64,000 nt of DNA. Source: Mesaphorura yosii (Eukaryota; Arthropoda; Collembola; Poduromorpha; Tullbergiidae). The first letter of the stretch is position 1. Each line of letters begins with the position of its first letter. The stretch spans positions 62,001 to 126,000 of the forward strand of contig WIXG01000225.1 in NCBI GenBank assembly GCA_009869945.1. The letters run 5' to 3'. The position numbers and the translations under genes are program-made. Shown here one piece after another: positions 1 to 39,857 of the stretch. The notes beneath the pieces are model-generated. The model was not told the DNA's origin, ran no database searches, and worked only from the letters and a program-made list of their open reading frames with translations.

Positions 1-3000
1 GATTCGCCCGCTTTGGATCCCAGTGACCGGCATTCTCACGACGACCTTGCCAATGTGCTTGGCCTCCTGCAGGAAGCGGAACGCTTCGTGGACTCTGCTG
101 AGTGGGAAAAGCGTGTACGGCAGCGGGCGATACGCGCCCATCGCCAGGCCATCCAGCAGCATGTTGCTCACGCGGAGAAACTCTTCGCCGTCCCCGAACG
201 CGCCCATCATCTCTGAGCTGCCTTTCTCTTCAGTTTCATTCAACTTCTGGATGAAATATGTCACGTCGGGGCGAAGGTCTGCCACTTCTGCTTCAGTCCA
301 CACATTGAGCTTGGACATTTCCAGGAACCGACCGCCTTCCGCGAGTACGTCGAGCGTCGTCTCCTTGAAACCGGGACCCGTGAGTGCGTTCAGAACGATC
401 GTCACTCCCGCGCCGTTCGTGTCGGCTTTGATCTGGGCACCGTAGTCCGTGCTTCGGGAGTTGTATAAGTGGCGAATGCCGAGCGATGCGAGATACTTGC
501 GCTTTCTTCTGTTGCCAGCCGTCGCGTAAATCTCTGCTCCGATGGCTCGCGCGACTTGAATTGCGGCGAGACCCACGCCGCCCGACGCGACGTGGATCAG
601 AACGCGGTCGGAGGCTCGGAGTTTGCCGACGTGCACGAGAAAGTAGAGGGCGGTCAAGTACACACAGGGAAGTGTGGATCCGTCCTCGAAAGACATTCCC
701 TCCGGCATGACGTGCACGCAATTTTCGGAAACGACGACGTGACTCGCGAGCGCTCCGCCCGGAATGAACCCAAAGACTCGCTCTCCGATCTTGAATTTTG
801 ACTTCGATTTGCCGTCTTCCGCCACGTTTCCAATGTTCGTCACAACCCCAGAAAAGTCTACGCCGAGCTCCGTCGCGAATTTTGGCATTGCCTTCACGTC
901 CTCCACGGAAATGAGCTGGCTGTCTCCACTCGTCGACATTGCGATCAGCACGTCCTTGAAATTCAGGGCGGAGGCAGCAACTTTGACTTCCACTTCGCCT
1001 GGCGCGGGAGTTTTGCGCACAGCAGCGACAATTTGAATATCCGGGATTGTGCCGTTCGCTGGCTTTTCCAGTTTGTACCGTTCCGCGTTGGGGTAGACGA
1101 GTGGAGGTTTGTAAGGCTCAGCATTGATCAGCCGACGGACGTACTTCTTTCGGGCACGGAAAGCGACCTGGTTCTCCGTCTCGTTGAGCCAAAGCTGGTG
1201 GAAGACGTCTTGGCACGCAGCGCTCGCTGTGTCTTCCGGATCCACGTCAATAACGACGGCTGACCGGTCAGCGAATTCATTCAGGAACGTCATCAGAATG
1301 CCCGACAGCGTGGCCGAAACAGGGTTCGTGGGTTCCTGATCCCCGACTCCGATGTACTGAGCTCCGTTTGTGACGACAGCCATCTTCGGTTTGGACTCGA
1401 GCGCATGCAAAGCCTGAATGACGTGCAGGAGGCCTCCGCAGATTTGGCGCAGGTGAGTTTCGTAGTCGACGCCAGAGTCCTCTGAGGGGAAAGTGGCCGG
1501 AATTCCCCACAAGTAAAGAATTCCTTCGACATGCCCTCGCCCTCCTCCTGCTGCGCCGCCGGCGCCGCTGCTGCTGATATCTTCCTTTATTGCTTCAAAG
1601 AGGTCGACGAATTGTGAAGACACGACTGGATTGACGGTGTACATATATTTTGCAGTGTCCGCAGATCTGCTGATCGATTCTGCGTCAGCCGCGGCACGAA
1701 TTCGAACCACATCTTTGCCCACAGAACGTAGCAGCTCCGAAATGCGTGCACTGAACTCGTCCTCGTCTTCGTCTTGCTCATCGTTCCCACCAAAGACAAG
1801 CCACGTTCCGGTGCCTGTGCTTATACCTGTGCCAGCGCCTGATTCTTGTGCCTGTGCCCCCTGCACCTCGTGCGAGCCGTTCACAGCGAGCGTGTGCTCT
1901 TCGGGCCCCGCGAAGGCGACAAAGTTCCTGTAGTCGAGCCCCTCAAAGTCGCCGTACTCCTTCGGGAGCACGAATCCGTTCGCTTCCAGCAGCTGGAACC
2001 ATGTGCGACCGTCCACGGTTGGGTACTTCTTCCTGACTTCGGTGTCACTGAACCGCCACCATGCATCCAACAGCCCGAAGGAAATGTCCACAATGCGGAG
2101 CGGTCCGACGAGTTCGGTAAACACAAACTGACCGCCAGGCACGAGCAGGTGGCGTAAATTGCTGAGGGTTTCACTCAAATTCCGCGTGGCATGCATGACG
2201 TTGTCGGCCACGATGCAGTCGAAGTAGTGCGGCGCGAATCCTTGCATTTTCGGGTCCTGTTCGATGTCCAGCAGCTTGAATTTGAAGTTGGCGCGATCTG
2301 AGAACCGTTTCTTCGCCTCGTTCAGGAGCAGCGGCGAGATGTCGGTGACTGTGTACTCGTACGGTATCCCAAAGTCGTCCAGCTCACGGCGGAGCTCGTC
2401 CGTGGCGGCTCCCGTGCCCGCCCCGACTTCCAGCACCCTGAACGTGTAGTCTTTCTTGGTTCTGGTCCCCTCCTGGCCGTGGCCTCCTTCGACGTTGAAC
2501 ATCGACTCCAGCTGCACAAGCACGAGTTGAGCACCGACTTCATGCAGGAATTTGAACGTGCTGTTTCGGTACATTTCGGCCGCCCCCACGACGCCAGACG
2601 TTTCTGGGAAGAGGACTCCATAAACGCTCGTTTTTCCACACAGCACTTCCGGGAGCTGCTCTCCGCAGTTGACGATGAACTTGTACTCGACCTCGTCGTA
2701 GTTTTTGCTGAACCAAAGCCCGATCTCTGCGATTCTCGTCTCAATCTCGTCGATGGTCGGCAGCGGACGGAGAACAGTGGCCAGATCAGGGTTCTTGGCA
2801 TCTGTCCTCACGTCGCCTTCGTCCTGCAGAATGTCAAACCAGCGGGCAAGCAGCTGCTGGTGTCTTGCGAGTACGTGCGACGTCTTGACGAATTGGGACA
2901 CAGCGACCTCATCGCCGACCGCGTAATTCCAGCCGAGGTGAAGCATCGCCCGCACGATGTACGCGTAGCAGAGAGCGTCGAATTGGGGCTTGACGGGCGA

Positions 3001-6000
3001 CAGCATCTCCGAGTATTTCTGGACCCGATCCATGACTTGCAGGTACTCGTCACGGCTTTCTAGCCCAGGCGGATGCTCCGCACGGAGCGCCAGACGAGAG
3101 CTACGTGGCCCAAGTCGAGGCTGCCAGACTTCCTCGAAGAAACCGGGGTACTCGTCGCCGTCGGACGCGATGAGGCGAAGGAATGACGGCACGGTGGTCT
3201 GCACGAGGTCGATTCCGTCCACGTACGCGAGCTGAGCCCCGTGTGCGTTGTACAGTTTCACGGCGGAGGAGTTGAGAATTGCACCGCCCTCGCCTTCGTC
3301 CGCATCCCTGCAGCTGTGAATGTAAAGCTTCGGCGTCTGCACGCTGCCAGCCAGCACCACGCACTTTTTGATCATCATGGGCAAGTACAGCCCTCTACCA
3401 GCTTTGTCTTTCTCTTGCTTGACGGCGATAGAAGCCACGCAGCTCTGAATCATTGCGTCCAGTACGATTGGATGGCACACGTAACGATCGGAGCCTTCGG
3501 GGAGCGACGTCTCGACGAGAAACTCGGTTTCAGAGTACCAAATGCGTTGGATGCTCTTGAACAGCGGCCCGAACGTGATTCCCATCTCGGCAATTTTCTC
3601 GTAAATGTCGTCCACCGTGTCTCGGAGGCTGAGACTCGACTGGAGCCCTTCGATGTCCACCGTACTAGCGCCATTGCCCAGCCCGTTTTGCATGTCTACC
3701 GTGGCGCAAGGCACGAACGTCGCCGACACAAGTTTCTTCCATTTCCCGCTGTCCGAGCCGGACGGGTCAAATATTGTCTGGCGGTAGACTCGTACGTCGT
3801 ACTGGAGTTGGTCGTCCACGGTGCTGGCTGTGAGTACCGTTTGCAGTTGAGTGCACTGCTCTTCTCTCAGCGGGAGGGCGGACTCCACGGTGAGGTTCTC
3901 GAGTGCCAGTTGAATCTGAGCGTTGTTCGCCCCTCCGCACAGCACATCGCGTCCAGCTGCGAGAACGGCTTCGAGATACCCGGCAGCGGGGAGGATAATC
4001 TTCTCTGCCACTTTGTGGTCTTTAATATAAGGCAGCGACTCGAGTGAGATGGAGTTGTAGTACGTGATAGAGTCGGACAACGGGCTCGGGATCCGCTTCC
4101 CGAGAATCGGGTGGGCCTGCTTGGCGTTGATGATCAGACTGTCGAGCTTCGAACTCTTGCCCTTGTACCAGAATTTTTCGTGCTGCCACGGGTACGTCGG
4201 TAGCGCCACCACGCGACTGCGTACAAAAGGAGCATCGAACCTCACCCAGTCCACGTCCACTCCGAATGTGTACATCTTCGCGAGGCTCGTGAGCAGCGTG
4301 AGCCAGTTGTCCTCCGTCTTTCTTATCGACGGGCACCAGCAGGAGTCTTGGGCCGTGTCAGGCAGGACGGAGCCCATTCCCAGGCCGAGCAGTACAGGCT
4401 GAGCCCCGATTTCCACAAACACGTTCACGGCCGAGTCGTCGGTGAGTCGGCCGAACGCGTCCACAAAATTGACGGGCTCCCGCAGATGAGAGAGCCAATA
4501 ACTCGTATCGAAATCGGCCTGCTCAAGCTTCATTTCACGGGCGAACGTCCCCGACACGTATTTGCAGCGCTGGGCTCGATCTTCTCCGTCGATGTTGATC
4601 CTCCTCACGATCTGCTCGTACTGCTCCATGATATCGTCCATGGCTCGTGAGTGAAAGGCGTGCGATGCGGCCAGTCGCTGGCTGCCGACTCCGTGCGAGT
4701 TCTTTTGAATGAACGACTCGAATTGGGCGATGGCTTCCAGCCCACCGGACACGACAACTTCTGAGCTCGAATTGACCGCTGCGACGTCGATCCAGTGCTC
4801 AGGCGCCTCCCCTTCGTTCTTTCCTTCTCCCTCGCCCTCGAAATCTGCGATGAGCCTCTTGACGACGTCCAGCGAAGATTTGACGACCATCATCGCTCCT
4901 CGCCCCAGTGAATTCACGAGCTTGCTGCGTCCAACGACCAAGCTAAGTCCCTCCTCGAGGCTCAGAACGCCCGCGACGACGGCGGCCGCAAATTCTCCGA
5001 CACTGTGCCCCAGAACGAAGTCTGGCACGATGCCAAAGCTGGCCCAGAGCTCAGCCAGACAGATTTCGATGCAGAAGATTGCTGGCTGACTGTGCACGGA
5101 TTCGTCAAGGCTAGTCATCATCGTTGTCGTCGTCCCTATTGCATCGTAGCATAGAATTTTGGCCAGGTCCACCCCGTAAGTTGTCTTAAGCAGCGTTGCA
5201 CACTTGTCGAAAGTGGACTTGAAGACGGGATGCGTGCCGTAGAGCGTTTTGGCCATCGCGACGTACTGCGAGCCCTGCCCCGTGAAAAGGAAGGCAATGG
5301 TGGGTTTCGTCTTGCCGACTTTGTTGGCGATGTGGTAGCCTTTCTTGAGCCGAGCGGACAGCTGTACGGTGTCTTTGGCGATGATGGCGAGTCGGTGACG
5401 AAAATGCGCCCGACCCGTGTTGGCCGAGTACGCCAAGTCAGCCAGTCGCAGACTCGCACCGCCCTCGGATTCAAGCAAAGAAATATACGAGGCCACAAGC
5501 GCCTGAAGCGCCTGCTCAGACTTTGCACTCAGCGCAATGACGTGATTCGTTCGCTCCATGTCTGACGGCGGGAGATGGATCGCAGGGAGCGGTGGCGGTT
5601 CCTGGACGATGACGTGCACGTTCGTCCCGCTCAGTCCGAAGGAACTCACTCCAGCGACGAGACCGTGCCTGCTCGTGGGCTTCCACTCCGTGTTGGCTTG
5701 CGGGATGATTGCAGGGATCTCGTCCAACTTGATGTACGGGTTGAGCGTGTTCAGATGCAGGTGACGAGGAATTGTGCGGTGTCGCATCGAAAGAAGAACC
5801 TTCACGAGGCCTGCCATCCCGCTGGAGCCTTCCGTGTGACCGATGTTGGTCTTCACCGAGCCAACGTAGAGAGGTTCAGTCCGTCTACGCTCACAATCTG
5901 TGCTGGCGGCCCCAAAAACTTGGTTCAGGGCGTGGAACTCGATCGGGTCACCGATTGGCGTGCCCGTCCCGTGTGCCTCGACGTAGCTCACGTCATTCGG

Positions 6001-8356
6001 GTCGATACCCGCCACTTTGAGCGCTGTCCTCACCACAATTTCTTGAGCCACCGCGTTGGGAGTTCCAAGCGTCGAACCTGCGCCGTCGTTATTCAATGCA
6101 CTGCCTCGAATTAGTCCAAGCACGCGGTCCCCGTCTCGCACAGCGTCCGACATGCGTTTGAGCACGAGCGCCACGCACGCTTCGCCACGAGCGAATCCGT
6201 TCGCTGACTCGTCAAACGTCTTGCATTTCCCATCGTTTGAGAGGAGGAAAGAATCGAGAGCACTGAGTTCCCCAGAAAAACCAAGTGCGATGTTCACGCC
6301 ACAGGCCAGCGCCAAATCCGTCTCTCGCGACTTGAGTGCTTCGCAGGCGTAGTGCACGCCTTCCAGCGCTGAGGCGCAGCCAGCTTCCATCGCCACGCTA
6401 GGGCCGCGCAGACCGAGACAGTGCGAAATCCGCGCTGCCGAGGCACAAAGCGCGTTTCCGAGATACTTATGTTGAAAATCACGACCATTTCTCGACTCAT
6501 TCGTGATGTGCATCGCGTATTCTTGAGCCCACAGTCCCACAAACACGGCCGTGCTCGTCCCGTTCAGTCGCTGCGGGTTGATTCCGGCGTGCTCCAACGC
6601 TTCCCAGCTGACTTCTAGCAGCAGACGCTGTTGTGGGTCCATGTACTCTGCCTCACGCGGGCTGATCTCAAAGAACTTGGCGTCAAAGTCCTCAATCGGA
6701 CACTTCATGTAGCCGACTGGCGTGTCGTGCTCGTTCTCCAAGTCGGGTTTCGTGAAGAAACGTTCTGGAGGCAAGTGCCTCGTCTCGTCACGCCCTTCGA
6801 ACAGAAGCTCCCAGAATTCGTCTTCGTTATTGGCACCGGGGAACCGACAACTAAGCCCGATGATTGAAATAGCATCGCCAAGGTCTTCAGCTTCGTTTGG
6901 CGAGGGGGCAGGGTGACTGGTCCTGCTCGTAGTCGAAGGCGGCAGGATCTCATCAGAAAGCGAAATTGGTATCGGCACAGGCATTTCGGAGTCTTCGAAG
7001 CACAGTTCTTTGAATTTTTGCACTAGTTCATCGTTCAGCAGATGTTTCGGTAAATCCACTGCCACGTTCCGATAGAATGAGCATGAGCTCAGAACCTTCG
7101 GGAAATGAATCAATACGAAGCATAGAAATTAGAATTAGCCTGATTTCGTGTGCGAATTTTCTGCATTACGTCTAGCATTTATATTTTAGCATCTTACATT
7201 ATTGCAGCCTAATTTCCAAGGGGTTTCGGTCGCAAATCGAATTATTTTCGTGTTCGAGTTGAAACTGCGCAAAAATAACATCAAAACAAGACACATACGT
7301 CATCAATCAGCTGGATGGCTGTTGTTTCACAAGTTCATACATGAGACGATGCACGTTCACCGCAGCAGCGAAGTGGTTCGTGGCCTAGCCAGGATCATAA
7401 TCATGATAGGCAAAGAAGTGAGAGCTTACCAGTTTTTGTCAAACTCGCTCCCAACTAACAAGTTGTACTCTTGTCCAAGTCGGGCAATACTGTTGCTGTT
7501 TTTGTTTCCAGTGTCCGTGTCTCCGTTTGTTTTCGTTTTCATGCCCATCCATTGTTTTTTGAAGTAAGAGTTCAGAGCCTCGTGAGCAGAGACGACTGCA
7601 TTCGTGTAATCGTAATTAGCATGAGGATTTAGTAATGCAATTATTGCAAGGTGAAGGCAAGCCAATGATTGGTTGTCTTACGATTGTTGTTATTCAGGTT
7701 TGCGAGATCCTTGACCATGCTCTTGAACGTGGTGAAGCTTGGTCGCAGTACGAAAAAAGTCGTAGAGAATTGTTGCCCTTTGCCACTGCCATTGGGATTG
7801 CCCTTTCCTGCAGCGACTGCTTTTGGTGCAATTGCACACGGGATAGCCGCAAACTCTTCTTTCATGTCAAACAACTCGTCGCAGTTCTTCAAAACCTGAA
7901 ATTTGCATGCAAATTGCAAAATTCAACTCAATTTTGATTTTCGCATGTATGAGCTGACGTACGATTGAGCACGGGTGTAAGAAAACGGCCCGCTTCGTGC
8001 AGCATTTCCACGCCGAGAGTGTGAGGAGCCCCTCCGCCGAAATGTTGGCGCAACCCGGGTCCAGGCCCTGGTCGCCGGTCCGAACCTCCATGATGTAATC
8101 GTAGGACTGGGCAAGGATCGACTTCATGTCGTCGGAAACTCGCTCACCAACGAGAATGCAGAGATCTCGGGTCGTCAGCGTCATTCGGAGGGACTTGGCC
8201 AGGGCGAGCGCGTTCCATCCGTCCAGATCCTTCTCGGCGATTGTCACCCAGCAGCCGGGCTGGTTCCTTACTCCTTCAGCCGTCGCAATACCAAATTAGC
8301 AATAAATTCTTCGGTATGAAGTATGAATATTGATGGCAATAAAACTTACCCAACAT
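1..8356 (-). CDS. Glycogenin-like GT8 domain fused to reducing type I polyketide synthase (3' end outside window)
   Basis: Multidomain enzyme expected to build a reduced, C-methylated polyketide from malonyl units. Exons are 8356-8350, 8273-7963, 7895-7682, 7595-7430, 7264-7198 and 7095 to beyond 1; all have GT-AG borders and the phases agree at every junction. Residues 1-255 resemble glycogenin (GT8): a VTIAEKD start, LFDMKEEFAAIPC, FSTTFFVLRPS, and ETPWK where KPW is usual. Exon 6 is one open frame of 2365 codons. KS spans about 331-747, with Cys495 in EAGCASAL, His630 in VEAHGTGT and His675. AT has GQGSQ, Ser953 in GHSVGEF and HAFHS (malonyl type). DH has His1282 and Asp1468. C-methyltransferase has VLEVGAGTGAATDEL near 1809. 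ER spans about 2281-2610 with NFKDVL and GGVGLAA. KR and ACP would lie past the left edge. The intron-free, GC-rich PKS body beside intron-rich GT8 exons suggests an acquired PKS joined to a host gene. PKS identity is near certain; the fusion is inferred from splicing phase. Confidence 0.85.
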
Positions 8357-32720: not shown

Positions 32721-34052
32721 TCAATAAAATTTCCGTGTGCTGGTGTTGTTTAGCAGTATTTGAAGACTTTTAGCTAAATTCGTGATGCGATCCATCTGGT
32801 AGACAATTGTGTCCGTGTTATTTGTGTGGTACTCAAGCCTGTTGTCGGCAGTGGCTTTTGTCCAGAGAAAGTCAAGCTTGAAGTTGAAGCTTTGTCGGGA
32901 TTTGTTCACAGCAGTGGTGCTGTTGCTGGAGTCTGCACTCCTCCAACGTTTGGTCGGAGTCCGAGTGATTTTGAAGTTAAACGTTCTTGAAGGTGGTTTC
33001 GTTGACGGAGACGAAGTTAACGAAGGCTCGTCTGGAAGCACAGCCTTCGTCGATGTTGCTGTTGTGAGAGTCGGAAGCGCACTGATACGACGCTGTGCTT
33101 TCGCCTCCGCCTCTGCCTGCTCACGTAATCGAAATTGTTCCCGTCGATCCTTAATCCTAGAAATGAATGAACTGCTGTTCGAGTACGTTCCGTTGATCGC
33201 GTCTTGAATCCTCCTCCGTCGTGCCTGCTCGCCTGGCTCCAGTCGTTCCTGGGGGACAACAAAGCTTAAGATCCCAAACAGTCCTTGAAAAAACGGAATC
33301 CCGACGCACTCGAGGGCGAACGGACCGATTCCGGTGATCATTGTCCCGAAGAGGCACTGAATAAACGGAGAGTAACTCTGGCAGTAGTACTGATCCGGCT
33401 TAAAGTTGGCTGCAATGACAGATGCCAGACTTAGTGTCAGGCAACAGGCAGATCAGGAAGAGAAATTGTGATAAGAAGAATTGCCCAATCGCCAGACTTA
33501 CCTGTGTGACCAAAGCAATGAAAAGACTTTTCGGAAAGAGATATTATCGCGTACTCGGGAAAAGTTTCTTGGAAGAAAAGGACCGCATTTGTCTCGTCGA
33601 GTTGACCATCCGGCTCAAACTGAATCAACAATCTTAGTGAGGTTCTTTAACCTTTAGCGTTTAGTGGCCTTCGTGGAAATAATCTCTAATTTTGGGGACT
33701 TACAAATTCGAGTTCAGTAAAAAGGCATCTTAGAAGGCACTGTGGCGAGAAAAAAAACATGAAAAGGATAGTAGAATTAGGATTAGTAGACTTGGACAGA
33801 GCTTACGTAAATTCGGGGCAGAGCCTGCAATATATTTGTCAGTCTGAAATTCATGGTATTTGGCCCAAACAGGCAGTGTGGTAGAACCCGAACAATTTCC
33901 TTGGTCAAAGTAATGAGAGTCTGTGTGCATGTAATCTCTGGCGGAGTCTCTGGCGGTCCCTCGTCGTCATCTGCACAGCCTCCCAGCTCAAACGATGTTA
34001 TCGCCAAAAGTGAAAAAACGAGTACAAACCTCTTGCAACTAATGCAAAGCAT
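32721..34052 (-). CDS. Secreted OBP-like protein with long C-terminal extension, copy A
   Basis: Exons are 34052-33807, 33739-33704, 33619-33502 and 33409-32721, giving 362 residues. Exon 1 has a signal peptide (FVLVFSLLAITSFELGGC). The Cys pattern resembles insect odorant-binding proteins. A first Cys precedes LFGPN; then C-x3-C (CLLRCLFTEL); then GQLD and a stretch with an early fourth Cys (FHC); then the closing C-x8-C (CQSYSPFIQC). Unlike classic OBPs (about 130 residues), some 200 residues follow: a hydrophobic stretch (GIPFFQGLFGIL), a Glu/Arg-rich helix (RIKDRREQFRLREQ), a Ser/Thr-rich part, and a conserved end (YHTNNTDTIVYQMDRI). Exon structure and exon 2-3 lengths (36 and 118) equal those of copy B, showing tandem duplication. 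Ligand unknown; the OBP relationship is inferred from Cys spacing. Confidence 0.6.
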
Positions 34053-35090: not shown

Positions 35091-36434
35091 CTAATAATAT
35101 TTCGGATAGTAAGATCTTCCTGTACCATTCAACAGCATTTGCAAGCTTTTGGCCAAGTTGGTCACGCGATCCATTTGATAGACGACCGTATCCGTGTTGT
35201 TTGTGTGATATTGCTGGCTATAAACATCATTATTCCTGCTCCAATCCATACGGAGATCCTGCCGAGCCCGGTTCATGTCATTGCTGTAGCTGTAACCGTA
35301 GGCATTCATATTCGTCCAACGATTGTTACTGTTGCTGTTGCCGTTGTTGTGGTCAGCGCTGTTGCTGAAGGGTGATGGTGGAGGCATAGGCGAAGGCGTT
35401 GTTCTTGAAAATGGCAAAGACGCAGAAGTTGTGGGCTGAACTGTGTCGACCTGTGGCGCGAGTGTCGGAAGCGCATTGAGACGACGCTGAACTTCCTGTT
35501 CTCGCAACCGGACCTGTTCGCGTCGTTCCTTAATTCTGGCAACGAACGAGCCATTGTTCGAGTACGTCCCGTTGATGGCATCTTGTATCCGTCGCCGTCG
35601 TGCCTGCTCGCCCGGCTCTGGCCGTTCTTGAGGAACAACAAAGTTGAGGATCCCGAATAATCCTTGGAAAAATGGAATCCCGAAACACTCGAGGGCGAAC
35701 GGACCGATTCCGGTGACCAAAGTTCTTGCGAGGCACTGAACAAACGGGGCGTAGCTCTGGCAAAAGTATTGCTGCGGCTTCATCGAATCTGTCGTAACAA
35801 ATACGCGGTATTTGAATGATTTACCACAACACACGAGAGGCAACTCGGTCTTTACCTGCCAAAGCTAAACAAGGCTGAGCTTGTTCTATGAGCGGAGGCA
35901 GTGCGTATTCTGGAAATGCTTCTTGGAAGAAGAGCAACGCCGCAACTTCATCCAAATGACCCTCCGGCGTAAACTGATTTAGAGTGAAGTCGTAGTTAGC
36001 AGTTAACATCAATCATGACGGTTAATTCGCTAGCATTCAGAAAAATGCCAGTGTGACAAGAAACTTACGACTGTGAGCTCAGCGAAGACGCATTTGAGGA
36101 CGCACTGTTATAGAAACAAAATATCATATGCCAGTTCCTCATGATTATGATTTTTGCTGTTGTGATGGCTTACGTAAATTCGGGGCAATGCTTGGAATAT
36201 GCTTGTCAGTCTCAAATTAATGACGTTCGGCCCAAACAAGCATTTTGGTATGATAGGGATCGTGTCAACGGTCAGGCCAAAGATCGTCTGAAAGCACGTC
36301 TTCTCAGGCGGAGTCTCTTCGGGTCCTTCGTCTTCATCTTCGTCATCTTCACAGCGGCCAAACTGAAATTGGGTCGCCACCAAAAGTAAAAATAACACCA
36401 CAACTTTTCTGTGTCTGTGAGTATTCCAATGCAT
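35091..36434 (-). CDS. Secreted OBP-like protein with long C-terminal extension, copy B
   Basis: Exons are 36434-36174, 36104-36069, 35973-35856 and 35788-35091, giving 370 residues. The signal peptide (VVVLFLLLVATQFQFGRC) is followed by a run of Asp/Glu. OBP-like Cys pattern: KCLFGPN, then CVLKCVFAEL (C-x3-C), FTPEGHLDEVAAL, QPCLALAD, and CQSYAPFVQC (C-x8-C), with 13 residues between Cys 4 and 5. The extension differs from copy A mainly in the middle, which is Pro/Ser- then Asn/Gly-rich here. Both flanks of it, GPFALEC-GIPFFQG and YHTNNTDTVVYQMDRV, are strongly conserved, so the extension is under selection. Same strand and same exon lengths as copy A. Confidence 0.6.
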
Positions 36435-37902
36435 TTTGGAATTGCCAGATTGTTGATTGTTTATACTGAACTTGAACTTGCTAGCGATCCAACGTTGACT
36501 GAAACTTAGACTAGCCGCGGTTTGCCTTCATGTTAGACATTTAAACATTGAGATCTTCCTGAAATTGTTACATAGTCTGGCCCTACCACAATTAAATGTC
36601 GATTGATGGTTCGGTGTGTTAGCTAATGACAGCTTTTGAAAACTAACACTATGATTACTCAGTCACAACAAAACGTCACGTTCATCGTGTGTGATATGCG
36701 ACCTACCTAATGCAAGAATATTTCCCCTATGCGATTATGCTACATCCATGAGAATAAATTGCATGTTTTTGTCTGGAACTTGCTAAACTACGCGCATCAA
36801 TCCTTTCTCTGATCTGTTCAACCTCTGTTTACGTCGGCAGAAATTATCGCGACCATGAAGGTCCATGAAAATTTTGCAGTAACCAGGAACCATAATTAGA
36901 TCTTCCAGGCAATCGCCAAGTCGTCAAAGTCATGATCACATGGTTAGTTAGATCATGAAATGATGAGCTCATGATGCTATGATCCTCAGCGGGACCTCTG
37001 AACATTCCCAACGCCAGCTCACGTGCTAATTACATATTGCAAGCCCACGCCTCTCATTGTTAGGAAACTCTGTGAATTGTTTTCTCTAGGTACCAAGCAT
37101 GATCCTTGTCCATTCAAAGCCCGCAGCGCTATTTGACTTTTATACGTATCATTTTCAAGGCAATGCACCCATTGAATTGGATCACAAGACTTTGGGTCCA
37201 GTGAGTCCAATCCATTCGCCATTCATGAAGATGGAAATTCACTTCTCAAACTTCTTGTTTACTGCGACTGCAGTTGAATCAGAAATCAGAATCACGCAAT
37301 TCTAAGAATAAGAACTTCCCACTCGACCTTTGCTGTGTAGTGCTTGGCTTGGTTGGCTTGAAGAAAGAAGTGTAAATACTGTTTGCTCAATATATTTATT
37401 TCCGGCATTTCCAAATCCAATTCCAAGTAACTGAATGGCAAATGGAAATTAAAATCTACTGCATTCATAATGCTCTCTGACCATTGGCTATTATTACTTT
37501 CTAGACTGCCACTGCTGCTATTTGCCGTATCATTAATGCAGTGTGTACACGAAAGTAAAAGCCAAAGGATTAAAAGGCCAACACTTATTTGACTGCTTTA
37601 CGCTTTTACGCTTGGGATGAATGCAGATTAGAATATTGCGTGACTCCATCGCTTGGAAGGAAAGCGGAATGGCTCCATGGTCAAGTGTTTTGTATATATT
37701 TGGATGGCAAAGAAAAGAAAGTAAGACGAAGAAGTACAAATCACAATCAAGGAATTTCACTCTGCACGTAATAAATTACATTGACATTCACCGACCGAGA
37801 CCGCGACCAAGACCGAGATTTCTTTTTATGTCAGTGTGAACTTGGACTTGGACTCGAAAGCAAGCAAGCGTCCAGACAGTTCAGGCATTTCTCGAAACCG
37901 AA
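36435..37902. other. Intergenic stretch, no gene recognised
   Basis: About 1.5 kb of AT-rich sequence between the divergent OBP-like copy B (-) and the PHD-endonuclease gene (+). Short open frames have no motif. Confidence 0.5.
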
Positions 37903-39857
37903 ATGGTCACTTTTGAGGAGGAAGGCGACCCCGTCACCCCGGACCCGACCGACGGTAACTTCCAGTTTGACTTCGACGACGATGATGAAGTGCACGAAAA
38001 CAAGGGCCATGGTTGTAAAATCTGTACAAAGCCCCCACGGAAGAATCAGCAGCTTTTGCACTGTCGTAAGTGTCACGATATTTACTTCAAGACGTGTCCA
38101 GTGCTCACGAGTAAAGAAATTAAGGACTACGACAATTTGTTCCGAACCTGGATGAAGAATAAAGAGACTTGGGACTGTCTGGAGTGCCGCAAGAAGCTTA
38201 AAACCACATACTGCACCATGTGCCATTTGGACAAAGACAAGATTCTGCTGGAGTGCGCCTGGTGCAAGCACAAATGTCACTCCGACTGCGCTGGGAATGT
38301 GAAGCTCGGGCTGAGCGTGTCCAGCACGGACTGGCTGTGCAAAGCCTGCAATAAAGGGGACAAGAGAGCGGACTGGTCGGACACTGGAACTAATTACACT
38401 GAAGCAAGTGCGCTTGTGGGAGTGAAAGAACTGGAAAGCATGCTCAAGACGGAATTTTATCCCTACGAAGGAGTGAAGATCCTCCAGCTGAATATCGGTG
38501 CACAACGACTGCACAAAGTGCGGCATTTCCTGGCTCACAACGAGAAGTACGTCGACGTGTTTGCGATTGGAGAGACGAATCTGAACAAGGCTCATTCCAA
38601 CGCAGACTACGAGGTACAGGGATATGAAATGGTGCGGGCTGACAAGAAAATACCACTGGCAGCAGCACACAAACCGAAAGCTCCAGCTACAACAAATGGC
38701 CATGCGGGGCATTCACAAAATCTTCCTGGTGGCCTGCTATTCTATATTCGGAAGGACTGGAAGGTTATTTCAAAGTCCAGTGACTTCTTCGAAACCAGCG
38801 CCAGTTCGACAGGCGGTGGGACCAGTGGACATCGCAAGGACTCACTTGCGCCAGGTGCTGGCGGCGGCGCAGAAAACATCTACGACACAATCGAATACCT
38901 GGAAGTTAAAATCGAGAAGGAGAACAAACGACTGAAGGGTGACAGCTTAATCCTCTTACTTGTACTGATCTACAGCCCAAAACCGGCCAACAAGTTATTC
39001 CTGGAGAAATTGGAAGAATTACTCACAACCCGTATTTCGAAGCTGAAGCACATCAGTCAGATATTTCTGATGGGAGACATCAAGATCAATTTGCTGGCTA
39101 ATCAGACGAATCTATCAGCGCTTGGAGTTTTCTTCAAAACCATTATGAGCGATCAGAACTACAAAATGCTGCTGGACGAAAATGAGCCGACTATCGCCAC
39201 AAAGAAGGCAGCAAAACTGAATCACATTCTGTACGTGTCCGAAGATGTGGAGGAGCTTGGAGTCAGAGGCGGAGTGGTGTACCTGGACTGGTCGTCGCAT
39301 TATTTGCTGTACGGAGTCAAGAAGTACTACTTTAATCAGGCAGGACAAACTTTAATTACTTTCCTGTCACCTAGAATGCCAATAAAATATGTTAATAGAA
39401 TTCTAGAATGCTGATGCTTGGTTTTTTTTAGATGCCAACGCTGGAAGCCAAGACCCTCAAAGCATTCGGCTTCACCAACCTCTCCGAGCACACAACAACG
39501 AAGAAGGAGCGAGTAATTAAAGCCATTCTGGATTATGCCAAGGCGGAAGCTGCACGCAGGGCGGCTGAGGAAGAGGCGAGGAATCCAAAGCCAAAGAAGG
39601 ACGAAAATCAAAATGAAACCACAAATGGCACGAATGGCCAAGACGAGAACCAAGCCGAAAAATCGAACGCTGAGAATGGGAAAAGTGTCAATGGAGAGGA
39701 AAACGCAATTTCCAGCACGGGACCTGGCCTTGGAAATGGTTTGTCAAACGGGAAAGGAAGCGAGAAGGGATCGAAGGCTAGCTTGACTTCCGCGGAAGAG
39801 AACGCTAGAAACAGGCCTGTGAGGCGTAAAAAATTCCGCTTCCTTCCAATTTGGTAA
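37903..39857 (+). CDS. PHD-finger protein with retrotransposon-type endonuclease-fold domain
   Basis: The main exon runs from 37903 and stays open to 39414. A likely 41-base intron (39391-39431, TTTTTTTAG acceptor, phase 0) joins a second exon ending at 39857, for about 637 residues. Domains: acidic N-terminus; two Cys-rich fingers at about 38-150, the second a good PHD (CTMC, CAWCKHKCHSDC, WLCKAC); then an exonuclease-endonuclease-phosphatase (EEP) fold at about 185-460 of the non-LTR retrotransposon kind. EEP landmarks are ILQLNIGAQ, FAIGETNLN (Glu near 224), GGLLFYIRKDW, LILLLVLIYSPKP, LMGDIKINLL and KLNHILYVSE. The usual GDFN is GDIK and the usual IDH is LNH, so catalytic residues are changed. 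No reverse transcriptase follows; the tail starts SAP-like (TLKAFGFTNLSEHTT) and becomes Lys/Glu/Asn-rich. Probably a domesticated, non-catalytic, chromatin-linked protein. Confidence 0.65.

Follow-up and report, generated by a model that had tools for sequence, protein, structure and literature searches.

A predicted family of polyketide synthases headed by a glycogenin-derived, apparently non-catalytic domain in one arthropod genome

The locus analysed here raises the question of whether glycogenin-like exons lying directly upstream of a polyketide synthase (PKS) exon belong to the same gene and, if so, what such a domain might do at the head of a megasynthase. The window, i.e. the whole stretch of 64,000 nucleotides that was analysed, carries these exons on the minus strand of contig C225. 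Five small glycogenin-like (GT8) exons had been placed upstream of the PKS exon on the same strand by the initial annotation, and this arrangement was borne out by a splice model and by matches to glycogenin. The features of the gene are as follows.

8350..8356, minus strand: exon 1, ATGTTGG, with the start codon and a phase-1 donor (hand splice model and paralogs)
7963..8273, minus strand: exon 2, N-terminal half of the GT8 (glycogenin-like) domain (splice model, phmmer and profile match)
7969..7977, minus strand: HPC in place of the DAD (DxD) metal motif of glycogenin, residues 102-104 (sequence and alignment)
7682..7895, minus strand: exon 3, GT8 domain, from VLKNCDELF to FFVLRPSFTTF (splice model and profile match)
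7430..7595, minus strand: exon 4, GT8 domain, SAHEA against GGDQG of glycogenin in a loose alignment (splice model and alignment)
7198..7264, minus strand: exon 5, C-terminal GT8 part with KIIRFATETPW (splice model and alignment)
7096..7197, minus strand: intron 5, the GT8/PKS boundary, phase 0, 102 bp (splice model)
1..7095, minus strand: PKS exon, 5' part with KS, AT, DH, MT and ER (translation and Pfam)
6982..6984, minus strand: in-frame ATG within the PKS exon, a possible alternative start without GT8 (translation)

All five introns of this model are GT-AG and their phases (1, 0, 1, 2, 0) fit at the five junctions, as had been proposed. Splice sites of this and of five paralogous models were placed by hand and by eye, guided by homology, so the GT-AG agreement across the six is partly by construction. 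Exon 5 ends, as stated initially, after the position of the KPW motif of glycogenin; the motif itself reads TPW, its lysine being lost.

The frame of the PKS exon leaves the window and ends at C225:59559, giving an exon total of 3178 aa, and the out-of-window remainder holds KR, ACP and a thioester reductase (Pfam NAD_binding_4). One chain with the order KS-AT-DH-MT-ER-KR-ACP-thioester reductase was thus assigned with Pfam, and for KS, AT, DH, MT, ER, KR, ACP and the reductase motif strings were present which we take to be the active-site motifs of these domains. The KR motif reads NHCSAN, with His at the expected Tyr place, presumably that of the catalytic Tyr of most KRs. Adjoining the PKS on the minus strand of C225:52001-62000, a 480-aa open frame resembling a secreted glycoside hydrolase and a further frame with an HMG-box-like stretch were noted by eye; these two frames begin near 3335 and 4680. 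Elsewhere in the window, likewise by eye, two similar adjoining minus-strand frames (32721-33452 and 35091-35864, QYYCQSY..PF.QCL...) appear to be a tandem duplicate pair, and a plus-strand frame of 524 aa (37840-39414) with PHD-finger-like cysteines followed by an endonuclease- or retroelement-like stretch is perhaps part of a retrotransposon.

The identity of the first domain was assessed by several comparisons. Using the joined protein of the window gene (query with one extra W), phmmer against PDB sequences returned glycogenin-2 as best match (E 5.2e-11, residues 10-127), followed by glycogenin-1. A profile built from six paralogous GT8 domains matched glycogenin-1 (E 2.9e-36, profile positions 5-233), and hhalign against the genome's own glycogenin (C264) gave a probability of 99.8 across 164 N-terminal columns. 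Judged from these comparisons, the domain of the six copies is homologous to glycogenin over most of its length. None of the six matched any Pfam family, Glyco_transf_8 included, at E up to 1, so the domain is missed where annotation relies on Pfam alone.

The 93-Mb assembly gave no COX1 match, and 66 matches to arthropod-type cuticle domains mark its source as an arthropod without narrowing it further. Three of the GT8 copies served as queries against this genome at E up to 10. The searches recovered the true glycogenin on C264 and at least six other places (C225, C632, C851, C731, C246 and C135), these counts being lower bounds because only the best candidates were scored. Among the matches listed, each of the six places other than glycogenin is immediately 5' of a PKS KS and on its strand. 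A search with PF00109 gave 36 KS matches on 25 contigs; a search with PF01501 gave eight places, i.e. C264 and seven more distant GT8 genes, none of the eight being on a KS-bearing contig. GT8 identity among the six copies is 23-44% pairwise, with 19 invariant columns. The hand-built models, with GT-AG introns, run as a single open frame into KS in 6/6 copies. The last GT8 exon of C851 runs unbroken into KS, and in C731 a single exon holds both a GPPW segment and KS. C851 is missing the C-terminal portion of the GT8 domain, which makes a complete glycogenin fold or dimer doubtful there.

Two related PKSs, C799 and C627, showed no GT8 in about 5.1 kb of upstream sequence in a full-sensitivity profile search, and the presence of the domain in every clade member is not supported. 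The profile was run over 25 loci (upstream regions of C799 and C627, other KS loci and three bacterial PKS loci) as open-frame pieces of 20 aa or more, most KS loci having only 1.5 kb of flank, and the best E value was 1.4; no GT8 was found ahead of the PKSs in the three bacterial loci. The PKS can probably function without GT8, since C799 and C627 apparently lack it, and the two offer a natural comparison for the role of the domain. At C641:17655-25973, outside the GT8 clade, two PKS KSs lie on one strand about 7 kb apart, with KR- and ACP-like stretches upstream of one of them by eye; this looks like a bimodular PKS, possibly on a contaminating contig.

The initial annotation had argued that the PKS exon has no usable ATG and needs an upstream exon. 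This was wrong, as an in-frame ATG precedes KS at 6984 (residue 38 of the exon), so the PKS exon by itself needs no upstream exon and it is the paralogs that supply the argument. Two separate neighbouring genes, a glycogenin-like one and a PKS starting at this ATG, would be consistent with it, with the stop that the unspliced GT8 frame reaches inside intron 5, and with the in-frame ATGs a short way before KS in the GT8-less C799 and C627. Opposed to this are the adjacency of GT8 and KS in all six copies, the phase-0 intron that immediately precedes the KS exon in C225, C632, C246 and C135 (columns differ in the gappy linker), and the 102-bp intron 5 itself, which holds neither AATAAA nor ATTAAA. 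In C851 and C731 the GT8 frame enters KS without intron or stop. With GT8 and KS on one exon, separate genes are excluded for those two copies; the reading was rejected on this ground and is very improbable overall. At the DNA level, the splice model, the paralogs, the shared introns and the single-exon junctions of C851 and C731 together uphold the predicted in-frame fusion.

Intron positions were compared on the alignment of the six copies, in which intron columns shift in some places at gaps. Each of the following occurs in 5/6 GT8 copies: an intron of phase 0 after residue 106, one of phase 1 close to the GGDQG region, and one of phase 2 ahead of the K-I/V-x-x-F motif. The first intron is in phase 1 in four of the six (C225, C135, C851 and C246), and three copies have a phase-2 intron at residue 48. 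The 7-nt first exon of C225 recurs in C135. Within 3 columns and at equal phase, 12 introns matched those of C225, against 0 of 20,000 random placements under a simple uniform null. An assembly of exons by chance was rejected on the conservation of paralogs and introns: chance is very unlikely to have produced this arrangement, because all six listed places lie directly 5' of KS and because of these 12 matches.

Part of the intron pattern is found in true glycogenins. In the genome's own glycogenin, a phase-1 acceptor lies five codons ahead of W-V-T, as it does in C135 and C246 ahead of W/Y-I/V-T. The own gene also has a phase-2 intron, and the codon which this intron splits lies six codons before the K of K-I-A-H-F. 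This distance is also six codons in C225 and C632, and five in C731, C135 and C246. The remaining introns of the GT8 copies are absent from the own glycogenin, whose gene model lacks the first exon. In human GYG1 an intron follows c.143, known from the splice variant c.143+3G>C (PMC5203857 and PMC7046021). Mapped by codon counting, this intron coincides with the phase-2 intron that C135 and C246 have at residue 48, and with that of C731 if a two-residue gap is allowed. Introns common to the copies, the own glycogenin and human GYG1 point to an origin from an intron-bearing glycogenin gene and not from a processed copy, which is the most likely descent of the domain.

In a KS tree of 15 rows, eight PKSs form one clade (100/99), comprising C225, C632, C851, C246, C731 and C135 with GT8, and C799 and C627 without it. 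The tree was built without C444, C682, two bacterial loci, C155 and partial KS loci, the KS of C135 being 358 residues. The four FAS-like KSs of the genome (100/100) stand apart from this clade. Presence of GT8 requires three changes on the tree, for which one gain and two losses would be the simplest account; three separate gains are formally possible by the count of changes alone, and the shared introns favour a single gain. A GT8 tree of eight rows grouped C225, C632 and C851 (100/99) and separated the two true glycogenins from the six copies (100/100), with long branches and no supported order for C246, C731 and C135. Three bacterial PKS loci found by a pattern scan were 38-39% identical, a comparison covering these bacterial loci only.

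Whether the domain could still transfer sugar was judged from the catalytic residues of glycogenin. DxD (102-104) is kept in 0/6 copies, being replaced by HPC, HPH, HPR, SPN, PPN and DSN; the window gene has HPC, the position of residue 102 is H in three copies (C225, C632 and C851), and C135 retains only the first D. D163, H212 and K218 are likewise kept in none of the six, H212 and K218 being replaced or falling in gaps or unaligned stretches in 6/6; past residue 160 the alignment is less secure. The acceptor Y195 falls in a poorly aligned stretch, where the copies show F, Y, gap, gap, Y and H. N12 is kept in 4/6 copies and K86 in C246 and C135, and different copies show different replacements at catalytic residues. 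In the window gene N12, Y15, K86, D102, D104, N133, D163, H212 and K218 are all changed.

The proposal that a glycosylating domain heads the synthase gained no support from these residues, as the window gene has other residues at D102, D104, D163, H212 and K218 and no copy retains DxD. An active transferase acting on the PKS itself or on its product would follow from GT8 homology. Against it, DxD is lost throughout and H212 and K218 are replaced or unaligned in every copy, and p.Asp102His (D102H) alone abolishes autoglucosylation of human GYG1, as reported in PMC5203857. The lost residues together with this precedent make glycosyl transfer very unlikely; the reading was rejected on the residues lost in 6/6 and is hardly credible. 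A binding function with no transfer, towards a sugar nucleotide, glycogen or glycogenin, which would couple polyketide output to the carbohydrate state or tether the PKS to glycogen, is a doubtful proposition. Descent from glycogenin, K86 in C246 and C135, and N12 in 4/6 copies would be in line with binding. The window gene is changed at all nine positions named above, which argues against it, as does the tail by which glycogenin binds glycogen synthase, since this tail lies outside the GT8 domain.

Constraint on the domain was examined in one pair of copies. Between C225 and C632, the GT8 part with linker (275 codons) differs at 110, 85 and 181 codons in positions 1, 2 and 3, and KS (430 codons) at 83, 50 and 263; identity is 44.4% and 72.3%, respectively. 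Third positions of the GT8 part thus differ 1.6x and 2.1x as often as positions 1 and 2. For this pair, the codon-position bias indicates protein-level selection on the GT8 part, apparently weaker than on KS. A decaying passenger, i.e. an accidental fusion that is translated, of little use and being lost, would fit the two of eight clade members in which GT8 was not found, the truncation in C851, the greater divergence of GT8 than of KS and the differing replacements of catalytic residues. Such decay is difficult to reconcile with the third-position excess, with the open frame into KS in all six hand-built models despite 23-44% identity, and with the 19 invariant columns, and is regarded as unlikely.

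The explanation we favour is that a genomic copy of the host glycogenin gene, introns included, was set in frame before a reducing type I PKS in an ancestor of this arthropod, and that the chimera was then multiplied. The glycogenin-like domain would have lost its metal and donor-sugar chemistry and would now sit, without catalytic function, N-terminally on the dimeric KS as a cap or docking surface that may help dimer assembly or position a partner or starter unit. Taken as a whole, this course of events is considered slightly better than an even prospect. We infer that the GT8 fold is retained and has an assembly, cap or docking role on KS, because the GT8 domain of glycogenin and type I PKSs are both homodimers. 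Points against such a role are the apparent absence of GT8 in C799 and C627, the partial domain of C851 and the greater divergence of GT8 than of KS. At the ends of type I megasynthases, domains for loading, docking and release are known. In broader terms, a PKS family whose captured pseudoenzyme glycogenin N-terminus constitutes a new dimer-cap, docking or sugar-state-sensing domain, overlooked by Pfam, is reasonably probable.

If true, the placement of a glycogenin-derived domain before KS would be a new architecture that a single arthropod lineage has retained and amplified, and an ancient sugar enzyme seems to survive in it as a component of a machine for chemical synthesis. With six diverged copies and two apparent losses, this one genome lends itself to following, as in a natural experiment, the conversion of a metabolic enzyme into a non-catalytic component. 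As the domain is invisible to Pfam, other arthropod PKSs may bear GT8 unnoticed. The family also gives a means of testing where the non-FAS polyketides of arthropods come from. In open literature on PKSs, fusions, arthropods and glycogenin pseudoenzymes, no title or opening of an abstract described a fusion of glycogenin or GT8 with a PKS; one source mentions a springtail PKS acquired horizontally.

Among known systems, the family resembles the animal FAS-like PKSs (AFPKs) in being animal megasynthases, which in the AFPK case make polyketide-like lipids (PMC10764717); unlike AFPKs, its KS clade stands apart from the FAS-like KSs of the same genome. That survey states that it analysed KS domains only, so that an N-terminal GT8 would have escaped it (PMC10764717). 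In general kind the family is like the arthropod HGT-chimeras, in which metazoan sequence stands in frame with a gene of non-metazoan origin, with loss of old catalytic residues described for oskar (PMC13389597); here the metazoan part is identified, whereas a non-metazoan origin of the PKS is only putative. The main text of that survey, as far as available, mentions neither polyketide, ketoacyl, glycogenin nor glycosyl, and its supplement may hold an entry (PMC13389597). Likeness to glycogenin (GYG1/GYG2, CAZy GT8) extends to a homologous domain, to the residue-48 phase-2 intron of human GYG1, as mapped by codon counting, and to the phase-2 intron before K-I/V-x-x-F of the own glycogenin; the domain differs in lacking DxD, D163, H212 and K218, in its fusion to a PKS and in matching no Pfam family. 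The synthase itself is like reducing type I PKSs with a terminal thioester reductase, sharing the order KS-AT-DH-MT-ER-KR-ACP-R and the active-site motif strings, with mycocerosic acid synthase as its best solved sequence by phmmer, and it is unlike them in the GT8 domain before KS and in having, within one animal genome, eight related paralogs of which six bear GT8.
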